DNA of 64,000 nucleotides from Candidatus Poribacteria bacterium. Its GTDB lineage: Bacteria > Poribacteria > WGA-4E > GCA-2687025. Below the pieces are notes generated by a model that searched no databases, was not told the origin of the DNA, and worked only from the letters and a program-made list of their open reading frames with translations. A program made the position numbers and the translations under genes. Positions within the stretch are counted from its first letter, which is position 1, and every line of letters starts with the position of its first letter. Positions 7,962-43,053 of this stretch are shown in pieces. The DNA lies in the NCBI GenBank assembly GCA_018644665.1, contig JABGQA010000088.1, positions 62,001 to 126,000 of the forward strand, given 5' to 3'.

Positions 7962-8279
7962 ACAGGAATCCTGTCAGGGTGATGAGCGGGCTCAACGGTA
8001 GACTCGGACACCTCCTACTTCAGGCCTCTGCACGGATGCAGGTTCGGTCGGACTCCGCGCATAGCTAGGTTAGCGCCTGCCTGCGGCCTTAACATCATGG
8101 CTATTCCGCCCAATGCGCGGTGTAGCGGCGCGATTCGGGGTTGATCCGTTCCCTTCGGTCCTGCCTGGTAGAGCGTCTGTGACTTTTCCCCGCCAAAACG
8201 CGCGCCGCGATGTGTCCTATAGGGCTAGTGTCCTGCTATCGGTTAAGACGCCGTGGAAAGATGTCGGAAGGGGCTCTCG

Positions 8280-10220
8280 ATGGAGTCTAGGAACGGCGAG
8301 GCGAGTTTCGAACGGCAGCTCTCGACGCAAATCGAGATGGTCCGGCGGATCGGGAGGCGGATGCTCCGCGGCGCCGACCATGACGTCGACGACTTCACGC
8401 AGGAGGTGCTCCTACGCGCCTGGGCGCATCGAGACAGGCTCAGGGAGACGGACAGCTTGTCGCGCTGGGTGGCCGCGATCGCGCGGAATGCGGCTCGCAA
8501 CACTAGACGGACGCGGTCCCAGCCGCCGAGTGGAGATGTCGACGGCCTGCTGGACGAGCGCCCAACGGTCTCAGACGAGCTTGAGACGACAGAACGTTGG
8601 GAGCGTCTGCTCAACGCCCTCGGGGCGCTCGACGCAACCAATCGAGAGTTGCTCATCGCCCGATACGTCGACGACGCGACGTACGACGAGTTGCAGGCGC
8701 TGCACGGGCTGTCCTACGCCGCGGTGACGTCTCGGGTTCGCCGAGCAAAGCAGCACGCGCGGCGGCTTATCCAGGCAACTCTCGGGAGCATCTTAGCGGC
8801 CTTCTCTGCCAAATCGGAGCGCGCCTTCGCGCAGACTCCGCGGAGCGCGATGAGCGGATCCGCGGCCATGAGCACGATTCTCGCGACAAGTGGCCTGATC
8901 GTTGGGGCCGTCGCCGTCGGCGTCCACGCATACGGGCCCACGGACGCTGGGCCCGCGTCGCGAGAGATCGCGGTGACGGGCGTGTCCGAACAGACGATGG
9001 GTGGAGAAGAGACCATGGGCGATCTGCAAGTACGACGCGAGGACGGTCGCGTATGGATCGAGGCCGTGCCCGGCGGCCAATTCGGGGAGGGTTGGGACAG
9101 GTTCCTGCTGGCCATGCAGGCGCTTCTCAAGGCGCGTGGGGTCGACGCGGACATGGCCACGTTGATGGCCCTCTCCGGGGACGCCTTCGCCCTATGCCAC
9201 GCGTCCCATTGGCAGGGAGTCGCCAACCTGGCTGTCCCGACGGACCCGGTTCGGAATCTTGCCGAGGCCTACGGGTTCGAATACGGCGCGACGCACGAAG
9301 GCTACACAGGCCCGGTACTTGGCCGTCCGATGGAGGAACGTGAACGGCTGACAGGAGATGCGCTCGCACGCCTGCGTCAGGAGATCGACGCTGGCAGGCC
9401 GGTCCTGATCGCAGGGGCGGAGGATCATTGCGGCAGTTGCTCGGTCGTCGTCGGCTACTCGGAAGAGGACGGCACACTATGCCACGTGGGCGATGGCGAG
9501 CCGTATCGCTGGACGCCGATACGTGGTGTGACGCCGGGCGCGGTCGACTACGGCTTCGGTGTGATAGACGGACGCATCCGGGGCATCGGCGCGCCCGGAG
9601 CCAACGGAGGCTGGTACGCGAATCCGATCTACCTGCTCGGGGTAAGGGAGACGCCGCCCTCGGCCAGGGAACGCGCGCTGTCCGCGTTGCGCGTCGCGGT
9701 AGCCCTGCACGACTCGCCGACGTACGAGCGGTCCAACTGGGGTGGGGTGGAGTATTTCTTTGGCGCGCGGGCGTATGCGGAGTGGGAGAAGGCGCTGCGG
9801 GAACTTCGGTACCCCGAGGATCTCTCACGCGACGTGACGGCCGAGGTCACCGGCTTTGACGACGCGTACGATTGGTACGCGATGGACAACATGGTGACGC
9901 AGGTGGACCAGATCGTGCGCGGCCGTAGCGCGGCGGCAGCGCTTCTCGATCGCTCGGTCGATCTCTTCCCGGAGGCGTCCGAGTTCGTGCGGCAAGCTGC
10001 GCGGCACTATCGCGAGGAGGTGGACATCGCCAAGCGGAAGCTCCACGTCTTCATCCCACGGGACGAAGACACGTCAAAGGAGCGCGCCGCCTGGCTTTCC
10101 GACGAGACGAACCGCGAGGACGGCGCGGGGGCAATCGCGGAGATGGCCGTGGCAGAACGCGCCGCCATCGCCCAGATCGAGAAGGTCTTGGGGGTCGTCG
10201 ATCCCGGAGAGATGCAGTAG
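8280..10220 (+). CDS. ECF-type sigma factor fused, via a predicted TM helix, to a C39/BtrH-like domain
   Basis: Sigma2 'DVDDFTQEVLLRAWAHRDRLRETDSLSRWVAAIARNAARN'; sigma4 'LLIARYVDDATYDELQALHGLSYAAVTSRVRRAKQHARR'; hydrophobic 'STILATSGLIVGAVAVGVHAYG'; 'GRPVLIAGAEDHCGSCSVVVGYSEEDGTLCHVGDGEPYRW' resembles C39-like/BtrH folds. ATG 8280 with GGAAGGGG upstream. Confidence 0.75.
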   Translation: MESRNGEASFERQLSTQIEMVRRIGRRMLRGADHDVDDFTQEVLLRAWAHRDRLRETDSLSRWVAAIARNAARNTRRTRSQPPSGDVDGLLDERPTVSDELETTERWERLLNALGALDATNRELLIARYVDDATYDELQALHGLSYAAVTSRVRRAKQHARRLIQATLGSILAAFSAKSERAFAQTPRSAMSGSAAMSTILATSGLIVGAVAVGVHAYGPTDAGPASREIAVTGVSEQTMGGEETMGDLQVRREDGRVWIEAVPGGQFGEGWDRFLLAMQALLKARGVDADMATLMALSGDAFALCHASHWQGVANLAVPTDPVRNLAEAYGFEYGATHEGYTGPVLGRPMEERERLTGDALARLRQEIDAGRPVLIAGAEDHCGSCSVVVGYSEEDGTLCHVGDGEPYRWTPIRGVTPGAVDYGFGVIDGRIRGIGAPGANGGWYANPIYLLGVRETPPSARERALSALRVAVALHDSPTYERSNWGGVEYFFGARAYAEWEKALRELRYPEDLSRDVTAEVTGFDDAYDWYAMDNMVTQVDQIVRGRSAAAALLDRSVDLFPEASEFVRQAARHYREEVDIAKRKLHVFIPRDEDTSKERAAWLSDETNREDGAGAIAEMAVAERAAIAQIEKVLGVVDPGEMQ

Positions 10221-23679: not shown

Positions 23680-23890
23680 CGTGTGTATGTCCCTCGTAAC
23701 GGTCCGCCTCGAACGCGTCTGGACGATGGTCCGGCGCGATCTCTCTTACCTGAAACAGCAGATCGAAGCGATCCTTGCCGATCCGGGAGAGCGGTAGGAG
23801 ACGTGGTCGTAGATGCGTCCGCAACCCCGTGGGGCCGTTGTGCTCGGACAGTTTCCGCTTACATTCATGGCGTAAACCGGGTCTTCTACG

Positions 23891-25575
23891 ATGGCGACGC
23901 TCGCTATGGGAGGAGGCCCGGCATCGCCATCGACGCGCTCATCGCTCATCGCTCAGGCGACGGATCGGCAAGCGACGGTTCCGGCGCCACCGGGCGTTCG
24001 AGGGGATTGCCCGCCTGTACCAGGACATGGCGTACGGATACGCCTATGCCCTGCTCGGCGACGGGCGCCTTGCCGAGGATACTGCGCAGGAGGCGTTCAT
24101 CGTGGCGTGGCGAAGGCTCGAGGACGTTCGGAACGCAGAGGCGTTCCCTGGATGGTCTCGGCGCGTCGTCCGCACGCAGTGCGACCGATTGACGCGCGGC
24201 AAGCGTCTCCCAACCGTGACGCTAGAAGCGGCGGCGCAGGTTCGCTCGACAGACGCGCGTCCCGACGTTCACGTCGAGGCGCAGGAAACGCGCGCTCGCG
24301 TCGCGACAGCCGTTCGCTCCCTGCCGGAGGCCGAGAGGGTCGCGACGACCCTGTACTACCTGGATGGGCACACGCAGAACGAGATAGCCCGTTTCCTCGG
24401 CATCAAGTCGGCAGCGGTTAGCACGCGGCTCTACTCGGCGAGGCAGCGACTCAAGGGGAGGCCCATGCACATGGTTCGCGAGGATGTTCGGGGAACGCGA
24501 CCGTCACGCGATGAAGCCTTCGTGCGCGATGTCCTGTTCCGTTCGATCCAGGAAGGCGACGCCGAGAAAGTGAGCGAACTCGTCGGCTCGGACGCGTCCC
24601 TGCTGAACGCGTCGGATGAGCAGGGGCGAACGCCGATCGAGGCGCTCTCGAAGTCCGAGCATCCCAACACCGTGCGGCGCGACTTCGACAAGCGGCGCGG
24701 GATCTACGAGTTCCTCACAGAGCGCGGGGCCGCGCCCGACCTGCCGGTGGCCATCGCGATGAACGACATCTCGCTGGCGGAGGGCCTCATCAGACGGCGG
24801 CCCGAGCAGATCGACGCGCCATTGACCGCTCCGAGCCCCGCGTATGGGATGCGCCGACTTCGCATGCGTCCGCTCGCGATAGCGATCGCGTTCCATCGCG
24901 AAGAGATCGCGCGGGTGCTCCTCGCGGCGGGAGCGGATGTCCACGCGGATAACGACCAGGCGGCTGTCATAGCAGCGACGGTCCCCGCACACCTGCTCAG
25001 CATTCTGCGCCTCCTGATGGATCACGGCGCGCAGCCGAATCCCCATCCCAACGCGCCATACGGCCCCCTCGCCTCCGCGTGCGAGTGGCTGGAGGGCGAG
25101 AGCGCCCGAGCGCTCATCGAGGCGGGAGCCGATCCGAATGCCCCTGTCTACGCGACCTACACCGGGACATGGTCGAGCGCTTCACGGGCCTCGTGCCATA
25201 TGACGGCCCGACGTACCCGACGAATCCCCAATGGAGTGGCTGCGGCCGGCAGCAGAACCCATGTCGCCGCTGTTCGTGGCACTCGGGAGTCCGGCGGGCC
25301 ACTGCGTGGATTGGGACGGGTTGCCGCGTGTCGTCGAGGTTCTGCTGGGCCACGGCGCCGACGCGCGACAGGAAGGATCGATAGCGGTACATGGCGAACG
25401 TGTGACGATGACGCCGCTCGCGTACCTGCGAAGTATGACGGAGAACGTCGGGGAGGCGGAACGGCGCCATCGTAATCGAGACGACCAGGCGCCGCACAAT
25501 CTGTCCCACCCGGAGAACTGGCGGTTCGTGGAAGAGACAGTCGCGCTGCTGCTTCGCCATGGGGCGGCCCGTTGA
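23891..25575 (+). pseudogene. ECF-type sigma factor-ankyrin fusion interrupted by about three frameshifts
   Basis: Sigma core 'GIARLYQDMAYGYAYALLGDGRLAEDTAQEAFIVAWRRLEDV...AERVATTLYYLDGHTQNEIARFLGIKSAAVSTRLYSARQRLKG' and ankyrin 'EEIARVLLAAGADVHADNDQ' in frame 0. The likely N-terminus (SLIAQATDRQA) is in frame 2; ankyrin continuation is in frame 2 (DMVERFTGLVPYDGPTYPTNPQW) then frame 1 (EWLRPAAEPMSPLFVALGS...VVEVLLGHGADARQ...TVALLLRHGAAR). Confidence 0.65.
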
Positions 25576-40758: not shown

Positions 40759-43053
40759 TCATTCGCGGGAGGCGCCGTGCTGCCGCAGAAGGGCCGACAC
40801 CTCTTCCGAATTGTCAGGCAGGTCGGGCGCGTAGCGTGGATAGTCCGCGTTCGGCGCCTCTGTCCAACGCAGTGGCGTCGCCCAGGCGCCTTGCGCCGCG
40901 TTTACGTCCGCCCCCTTTTCCAGAAGGAACGCGACCATCTCGGTCTTCCCCTTCCGCGCCGCCCATGCGAGCGCCGTCCCACCCTCCTCGTACTCGATGG
41001 CGTCGATGTCTGCGCCACATCCCAACAGCGCGTCCGCCACGTCGAGATTGCCGCCGGTCGCCGCCGTGTGGAGATGGGCCTTGCCGAGCCAATCGGTTCC
41101 ATTCGGATCGAAGCCGTGATGCACGAGGAGACGGATCGCCTCGCGGGTCTCCGAGTGAGAGCTGCGCAGGACGCCGCTCCCCAACTGATCGACGCGCTCG
41201 GGGTACGCCTCGACCATCTCCTTGAACAGGTCGAAATCCCCGCAATCCCACAGCTTCGAGGCAAGATCGGTGTTTCGCGCGGCCTGCGCCGCGTCCGTCC
41301 TGAATTGCTCGAGCACCTGCTCGGAACTCATCTCGTAGGTGTGGGTCACCGCGCCGAACTTACGCAGCAACTTCTGCATGTCGTGGTGTTCGTCCTTGGC
41401 TCCATGTCGGGCTTCGCTGATCGAGAGACATGACCCGCTGGAGTCCATGCCCACGTTGGGGTCCGCCCCTGCGTCGAGAAGCGCGCGCGCAACGTCCAGA
41501 TGATTCCCGGCGCTTGCCTCGAACAGGGATCGTCCGTGCGTGGCGAGATCCTCCGGTTGGTTTGGGTCGGCTCCGTGCGAGAGCAGCAAATTCACGATGT
41601 TCAGATGGCCACTGCCCGCCGCGTAGCCCAACTCACTCGCCCGTGTCGAATTCAGACGATTCGCTGCGTCCGGGTCGTCTCGGAGGATTTGCGCGACGCG
41701 TTCCTCATCGCCGACAGCACAGGCGACGGAGAGCTTGTATTCCGCGCCCTTGGCGAGGAGATATCCCGTGACGATAGAGCCGTCCCGAATCGAGGAAGGT
41801 GTCAGCTCGCGATGGGTGCGGTACCAGTAGTCGCCGTGCAGAGCCAGTAGAATCGGCGTCTTGCCATCGGCGCGTTCCGCATCTATATCCGCGCCCAGCT
41901 CCGCCATCATGTCGATGAGCCAGAGCTGACGCGTCATCACCGCCCAGTGAATGGCGTTGTTCCCGCGAACGTCGCTGGCTTTCGCCAGCGTCGGGCGCTC
42001 TGCCACGACGGCCTCGACGGCGGAGCGGTCGCGGCTTCGGATCGCATCGGCGAGGGTCTCGAAGTCGGGTGAGTAGCCATATCGACGCGTCAACGTCGCC
42101 TCGAGGAGCGCCGCGACCTCAGCATAGCCCCGCTCCCGCGCCATCGGGACAAGGACCCGCCATTCTTTGTACATGAAGCGTGACCTGCCCGGCTCGGCTC
42201 CCCCTTCAAGCAGAATGCGAACGACGTTCGGGTTGTTCCCACGGACCGCGTTGTGCAGCGGGTACTGGTACCAATACTGCGCGTGCACGAGGTTCGGGTC
42301 TTTCGCCAACAGACGCCGGACTTCCTCCTCGTCCCCGTCGAACGCAGCGCAGAAGAGCTCCCATGCGTCGTTCCCGTCGACGGGAATCACGTCGTTCACG
42401 TAGTGCTCCGTCTGCATCTCTTCCGGCTGTGCCAGTCGGGCGCTGATTCGCGTCACGAACGCGTCGTCGCGAGATGGCGCGTTGCTTCGCATGTTCTCCC
42501 TCACCATATCCATCAACCCCCTCTGCAGGCGAGTGCGTGCTTTGTGAAGCCGGGATTTGACCGTCCCCGTCGGTACTTCGAGAAAGTCCGCGATTTCAGG
42601 CTGCGTGTACCCGTCGATGTAGTAGAGCGCGGTGACGAGTTGCTCGTGCTCAGGTAACGACTTGATCGCTTCCATAACCCGACGGTGGAGCTCGCCAGCC
42701 TCGGCGCTTTCGTGCGGATTCGGGTCGCCTGACGCGACCTCCCAGGCGTCCTCCGCCGGGACGGTGAGTACCTGCCTTTTTCGGGTTATCCGGGCGCAGC
42801 TCCGCGACACGATCTGTCTGAACCACGCGACAAACGCATCCGGCTGCTGCAGGCCATCAAGGCTCTTCCAGGCCTCCAGGAACGCCTCCTGCGCTGCGTC
42901 TTCGGCGAGCTGGAAGGCGCCGAGACGCACGAACGCATACCCGACCGCCATGTCCTGATACCGACGCACGATCTCCCCAAACGCCTCCAACCGTTTGGCC
43001 TGAGACGCCCCCATGTCCGTGGCTTGCCTGACTACCGACGCGATCACTACCAT
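40759..43053 (-). CDS. ECF-type sigma factor fused to ankyrin repeats
   Basis: Sigma2 'YQDMAVGYAFVRLGAFQLAEDAAQEAFLEAWKSLDGL'; sigma4 'LVTALYYIDGYTQPEIADFLEVPTGTVKSRLHKARTRLQRGLMDMVREN'; then about ten ankyrin units to 'NSEEVSALLRQHGASRE'. Confidence 0.9.
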   Translation of the reverse strand: MVVIASVVRQATDMGASQAKRLEAFGEIVRRYQDMAVGYAFVRLGAFQLAEDAAQEAFLEAWKSLDGLQQPDAFVAWFRQIVSRSCARITRKRQVLTVPAEDAWEVASGDPNPHESAEAGELHRRVMEAIKSLPEHEQLVTALYYIDGYTQPEIADFLEVPTGTVKSRLHKARTRLQRGLMDMVRENMRSNAPSRDDAFVTRISARLAQPEEMQTEHYVNDVIPVDGNDAWELFCAAFDGDEEEVRRLLAKDPNLVHAQYWYQYPLHNAVRGNNPNVVRILLEGGAEPGRSRFMYKEWRVLVPMARERGYAEVAALLEATLTRRYGYSPDFETLADAIRSRDRSAVEAVVAERPTLAKASDVRGNNAIHWAVMTRQLWLIDMMAELGADIDAERADGKTPILLALHGDYWYRTHRELTPSSIRDGSIVTGYLLAKGAEYKLSVACAVGDEERVAQILRDDPDAANRLNSTRASELGYAAGSGHLNIVNLLLSHGADPNQPEDLATHGRSLFEASAGNHLDVARALLDAGADPNVGMDSSGSCLSISEARHGAKDEHHDMQKLLRKFGAVTHTYEMSSEQVLEQFRTDAAQAARNTDLASKLWDCGDFDLFKEMVEAYPERVDQLGSGVLRSSHSETREAIRLLVHHGFDPNGTDWLGKAHLHTAATGGNLDVADALLGCGADIDAIEYEEGGTALAWAARKGKTEMVAFLLEKGADVNAAQGAWATPLRWTEAPNADYPRYAPDLPDNSEEVSALLRQHGASRE
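40921..41252. repeat. 332-bp block identical to 38279..38610
   Basis: See partner repeat. Confidence 0.9.

Follow-up and report, generated by a model that had tools for sequence, protein, structure and literature searches.

A putative membrane-tethered ECF σ factor with a papain-like C-terminal domain and its relatives in Poribacteria

σ factors usually sense the outside of the cell through a separate anti-σ factor. In a stretch of 64,000 nucleotides from a Candidatus Poribacteria contig (JABGQA010000088.1; the whole stretch is called the window here), one gene joins an ECF σ factor to a hydrophobic segment and a large C-terminal domain, which raises the question of whether a single chain could be both σ factor and receiver, and how such a σ factor would be set free. 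The answer that we lean towards, at somewhat better than even confidence, is that this protein is a membrane-tethered ECF σ factor that serves as its own signal receiver and would be released by proteolysis upon binding at its outer domain.

A fusion kept in a second genome

The gene spans positions 8280 to 10220 of the + strand, stop codon included, as a single unbroken open reading frame (ORF) of 646 amino acids starting at the ATG at 8280. This start is backed by GGAAGGGG upstream and by the alignment with an ortholog (L013:3323-5263) from ARS61, a Candidatus Poribacteria metagenome-assembled genome. The preliminary description had read an ECF core with regions 2 and 4 from the sequence, and residues 1 to 165 (8280 to 8774, + strand) bear this out: Sigma70_r2 (residues 20 to 80, 4e-10) and Sigma70_r4_2 (residues 108 to 159, 9e-9) both score above the Pfam cut-offs, the NCBIfam model sigma70-ECF (TIGR02937) matches the ORF, and Foldseek retrieves solved ECF σ factors with a probability of 1.0. 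The presence of regions 2 and 4 and the absence of region 3 place the protein among the ECF (group 4) σ70 factors. Past region 4, no Pfam family scores above its cut-off in the ORF. The core is followed by a linker of residues 166 to 194 (8775 to 8861, + strand), predicted to be cytoplasmic, with a RAFG-type motif (RAFAQTP, residues 181 to 187) that is recognized in the family alignment and list of linkers; it holds no His/Cys zinc ligands, no zinc-finger motif and no Pfam match.

The ARS61 ortholog keeps the whole fusion, with 87% identity across the full 646 residues. Between the two genes, ω is lowest in the papain-like part (0.076), followed by the hydrophobic segment (0.17), the tail (0.175) and the σ core (0.24); every part of the ORF is under purifying selection. 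Identity is 91% within the segment and 66 to 68% in the linkers on either side. A gene for CreD lies downstream in both genomes, while the upstream gene order is not alike. The preliminary description had raised the possibility that homologues carry the two halves as separate genes, the ORF then being a chance or assembly joining. Two loci could be read this way: the paralog on C134 is frameshifted between the transmembrane (TM) segment and the domain, and an ARS61 gene, L012, lacks the σ part. Since the entire fusion is kept in the ortholog and in several in-frame paralogs, with purifying selection acting along the full ORF, we regard an assembly artefact as ruled out and any such joining as extremely improbable. 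In the C134 paralog (L008, G000:C134, 779-2657), the σ-TM and papain-like parts lie in different frames, as in a pseudogene or after a sequencing error.

Window gene and ortholog also share an upstream block (8185 to 8279, + strand) containing GTGTCCTATAGGG at 8212 to 8224, which is suggestive of a promoter of the gene's own. The core of this element, TGTCCTAT, recurs upstream of some paralogs; together with the conserved block this hints at possible autoregulation. Further promoter-like copies of GTGTCCTATAGGG in the window were not above chance.

A papain-like domain that has probably lost its nucleophile

Residues 246 to 470 (9015 to 9689, + strand) form a papain-like domain of the C39/BtrH/CcbD type that is probably exported, and residues 471 to 646 (9690 to 10217, + strand) a helical part. 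Searched alone against Pfam, the window domain gave nothing except Peptidase_C10 at an E value of 0.21, and a sequence search of the PDB with domain profiles returned only nonsignificant or spurious matches. Across 27 members of the domain family, Peptidase_C39_2 was found in 10 (best 1.6e-4) and BtrH_N in 5 (best 4e-4), all below the cut-offs. AlphaFold models, built from shallow alignments, were of medium confidence (mean pLDDT of 66 and 65). With the domain alone, the best Foldseek matches were all CcbD (E value of 0.011, probability of 0.91); with the full-length model, CcbD was found at an E value of 9e-4 (probability of 1.0, TM-score by target of 0.47) beside the solved ECF σ factors. 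The domain is thus predicted to adopt the papain fold of the biosynthetic enzymes BtrH and CcbD, as the preliminary description had supposed from its C39/BtrH-like signature. The helical tail noted there is seen in the models and the alignment, occurs in the stand-alone relatives as well, and falls within the CcbD-length fold match.

The catalytic residue appears to be lost. We took Cys19, the residue changed for crystallography in entry 9dks (C19S), as the CcbD nucleophile and mapped it by alignment reasoning, without superposition, to the column where helix 1 begins. This column holds Asp in the window protein (GWDRF), in its ortholog and in the stand-alone relative C114, Ser in most exported-type relatives, and Cys in C169-type sequences. 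An Asp at the predicted nucleophile position suggests a domain that is probably enzymatically dead and serves as a sensing module, i.e., a putative noncatalytic binding domain that, in contrast to CcbD, is probably exported. An active C39/BtrH enzyme is unlikely, given that the predicted nucleophile is not conserved.

Predicted membrane segment and family of the σ factor

Our census of σ factors in the genome (G000), based on profile matches and extracted stretches, gave 74 region 4 matches in two classes: about 32 proteins stop shortly past region 4, and some 42, more than half, continue with long C-terminal extensions of roughly 90 to 1,000 amino acids. Two extended ECF σ factors with ankyrin-like repeats and no TM segment soon after region 4 lie in the window itself (40759-43053 on the − strand and 23775-25475 on the + strand, the latter with a frame end that looks degraded). 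In another, L059:1001-2311 (G000:C106), the extension resembles by eye the alpha chain of phenylalanyl-tRNA synthetase.

Fourteen of the G000 σ factors form a sharply bounded family with the window σ factor (their best phmmer scores exceed 85 bits, with the next score down at 44), and a further member lies at C1:133139. The single-protein architecture of the preliminary description was upheld, and the protein is one of many: the family profile (A2) led to about 75 ORFs in 11 genomes, and the papain-like domain was independently fused to a different ECF σ factor (G082, L207) with a strong TM segment (KD of 2.18). In a maximum-likelihood tree, the family of the window σ factor forms one clade of 74 rows (SH-aLRT of 92), on which the papain-like label changes five times, with at least two changes forced by strongly supported branches; the sister pair of the window σ factor, L097 and L154, carries a different module. 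The modules after the TM segment include the papain-like domain (10 members), Kelch (1e-58), sortilin/BNR (6e-29), a PD40/TolB-like propeller (2e-7), a weak LamG-like match (5e-5) and several others. Members without the segment carry SAICAR synthase (PurC; L102, L153 and L174) or WD40 (L180 and L181); two further ORFs are cut by contig ends. That exported-type modules go with the segment and PurC or WD40 without it fits a C terminus outside whenever the segment is present, and the family seems to be a modular one-protein signaling system in which most members share the anchor and differ in their outer domains.

The TM helix that the preliminary description had placed at about 8868 to 8935 corresponds to residues 195 to 217 (8862 to 8930, + strand). 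By its own score this segment is moderately hydrophobic and borderline (KD of 1.92; biological-scale dG of +1.75, with parameters checked on the following control proteins only): CreD gave a KD of 2.6 and a dG of −1.7, an ABC transporter 2.4 and −0.04, and three soluble proteins 1.2 to 1.7 and +2.8 to +4.5. The call is therefore plausible but not secure from the window copy, and rests on the conservation of the segment in the family and in the ortholog. A hydrophobic segment lies 25 to 37 residues past region 4 in 67 of the 74 family ORFs scored, and many of these segments are far stronger than that of the window protein (KD up to 3.0, dG below 0). Stand-alone relatives of the papain-like domain (L190 to L197) have a signal peptide or signal anchor at the N terminus, which more distant ones lack. 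However, C114 (L007), the closest of the stand-alone relatives within the genome, has neither signal peptide nor TM segment, and an apparently cytoplasmic form of this branch of the domain therefore exists as well. Taken together, the domain of the window protein most likely lies outside the membrane.

G000 also holds a second, separate clade of seven TM σ factors (L087, L069, L073, L076, L081, L061 and L082), with the TM segment about 50 to 60 residues after region 4, large C-terminal domains and no internal start signature of the kind described below. In the family of the window σ factor, tandem clusters with several copies side by side occur at L161 (G004:C19), L163 (G004:C21), L172 and L173 (G022) and L181 (G014), which suggests local duplication.

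Proposed control of the σ factor and a possible start ahead of the membrane segment

The preliminary description had predicted a σ factor with no separate anti-σ factor. None is recognizable: no anti-σ gene adjoins the window gene, and Pfam scans of the ORF found no anti-σ or receiver domain. Only 4 zinc-finger anti-σ matches stand against the 74 σ region 4 matches in G000, suggesting that most of these σ factors need other control. The genome has one gene for an M50 site-2 protease. We propose that the N-terminal σ domain lies in the cytoplasm, with one helix through the inner membrane and the enzyme-dead CcbD/BtrH-like domain outside, where it would bind a ligand or partner. As long as no signal arrives, the σ factor would be kept at the membrane; binding would expose the outer part to cutting by a periplasmic protease, after which the M50 protease would cut within the membrane and free the σ factor to reach RNA polymerase.

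Two other readings differ from this proposal in where the domain lies or in how the σ factor acts. The protein might be a soluble ECF σ factor like those of ECF41 and ECF42. In that case the hydrophobic stretch would be a linker helix or one buried in the fold, and the σ domain would be masked by the papain-like domain, whose ligand would be cytoplasmic. The marginal score of the window segment, the lack of a signal peptide in C114 and the many other σ factors of this genome with soluble extensions, e.g., ankyrin repeats, would agree with this. However, the segment keeps its position in 67 of 74 relatives, is strongly hydrophobic in many and is conserved amid fast-changing linkers, and the exported-type modules, the signal peptides of domain relatives and the independent fusion with a strong TM segment all argue for a membrane protein, making a soluble form rather unlikely. 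Alternatively, the anchored σ factor might recruit RNA polymerase without being cleaved, as proposed for regulators of the ToxR/CadC type, which would suit a chain with a single TM helix, no recognized cleavage site and no anti-σ domain. Yet σ factors normally dissociate from the elongating polymerase, which speaks against permanent tethering. The precedents among fused ECFs likewise favor proteolysis, shown for IutY and proposed for SCO4117 (PMC8999054, PMC5826349), and we consider transcription from the membrane improbable. The preliminary description had left the choice between the two routes open; release by intramembrane proteolysis is the likely one, with IutY as precedent, and tethered transcription is disfavored.

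That description had also not recognized the combination of domains. The σ-TM-C39/BtrH-like arrangement in one protein stands, but ECFs that combine a TM helix with an exported domain have been described before, in ECF52, ECF53 and ECF48 (PMC8999054, PMC5826349). A literature search for σ factors named membrane-bound, -tethered, -anchored or transmembrane gave no relevant match. ECF52 and ECF53 likewise have their extracytoplasmic sensor on the same chain as the ECF core and the TM helix, and proteolytic release has been proposed for them (PMC5826349, PMC8999054); in SCO4117 of Streptomyces coelicolor, release from the membrane by an uncharacterized protease was suggested (PMC5826349). The window protein shares with them a C-terminal TM helix after the σ core, in its case as a prediction only. 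It differs in having a roughly 30-residue linker that lacks zinc ligands where theirs is a zinc-finger anti-σ domain before the TM helix, and a papain-like domain where theirs is a carbohydrate-binding (or glycosidase) exported domain; ECF52 is moreover confined to Actinobacteria. IutY of Pseudomonas putida (ECF243) also unites σ factor, membrane anchor and receiver, and its cleavage by Prc and RseP has been shown experimentally (PMC8999054), but it is a σ factor fused to a membrane-bound anti-σ factor for cell-surface signaling in iron starvation, whereas no anti-σ domain is recognizable in the window protein. ECF41, ECF42 and ECF238 also carry a C-terminal extension in place of an anti-σ factor (PMC8103513); the extensions, whether SnoaL-like, TPR or metal-binding, are soluble, in contrast to the intervening TM helix predicted here. 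Notable differences from the known TM-fused ECFs are therefore the absent anti-σ domain, the probable papain-fold pseudoenzyme as sensor, the shuffling of modules and a conserved putative internal start.

This internal start is a feature of the family linkers, which hold Gly-Gly-x-x-x-Met directly ahead of the TM segment, encoded mostly with GGAGG 7 to 10 nucleotides before the ATG. An ATG just before the segment is present in 61 of 67 TM members. Its mean anti-SD pairing energy is −9.0 kcal/mol, compared with −7.8 at the σ starts and −3.4 to −3.7 at the remaining internal ATGs, and in 45 of the 67 members its SD is better than that of any other in-frame ATG (8.6 expected). GGA serves as the first Gly codon in 30 of 35 cases versus 27 of 175 elsewhere (P of 1e-15, for members that are not independent), and a synonymous-codon null gave P ≤ 0.001 in two nonredundant sets. 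A consensus SD with an in-frame ATG falls in the pre-TM zone in 41 of 72 ORFs, compared with a rate of 0.034 for an equal length elsewhere; none of 8 other TM σ factors has one.

Compatible with tethering and release, the internal ribosome-binding site and ATG may also yield a sensor-only membrane protein that could dimerize with, titrate or tune the tethered σ factor, and for the family we give this even chances. Besides the counts above, ARS61 has a gene for a TM segment and papain-like domain with no σ part ahead, starting at a good SD and ATG (L012, G001:C188, 499-1770), and a σ-PurC fusion, an example of how such genes can arise, retains within the σ ORF the SD and the start that stand-alone PurC has. 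On the other hand, the members are related and the counts thus not independent, GGAGG might pause ribosomes instead, and the anti-SD pattern of the organism was not found in the genome assembly. In the window gene, the counterpart is Met191 (ATG at 8850 to 8852, + strand, in frame just before the TM segment), with a weak site of −5.8 kcal/mol (p of 0.27), next to −3.3 for Met197 and −9.7 for a chance site at Met28, so that the internal start is proposed for the family and is no more than possible in the window member. The wider picture, that Poribacteria expanded plug-in tethered σ factors with a conserved σ-linker-TM unit, many outer domains and genes translated twice, from the σ start and the pre-TM start, into a tethered σ factor and a sensor-only partner, is one that we put forward tentatively, at a little below even confidence. 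A lineage in which σ factor, anchor and exchangeable sensors have been joined dozens of times shows how one-protein control of promoter choice across a membrane evolves, and the family supplies ready-made chimeras. The internal start, if true, would make for a rare regulator gene producing both a tethered effector and a sensor-only form.

In-frame fusions of PurC to an ECF σ factor (L102:1168-2670 in G000:C144, L153:1321-2823 in G001 and L174:1124-2650 in G022) occur in three genomes of two families and have at least two origins on the tree. The fused PurC is not the sole copy in G000, which has a second, stand-alone one. A second purine-pathway fusion, L084:1934-3970 (G000:C133), joins an ECF σ factor in frame to an apparent adenylosuccinate lyase (PurB, judged by eye), with an SD-like site ahead of the probable PurB start.
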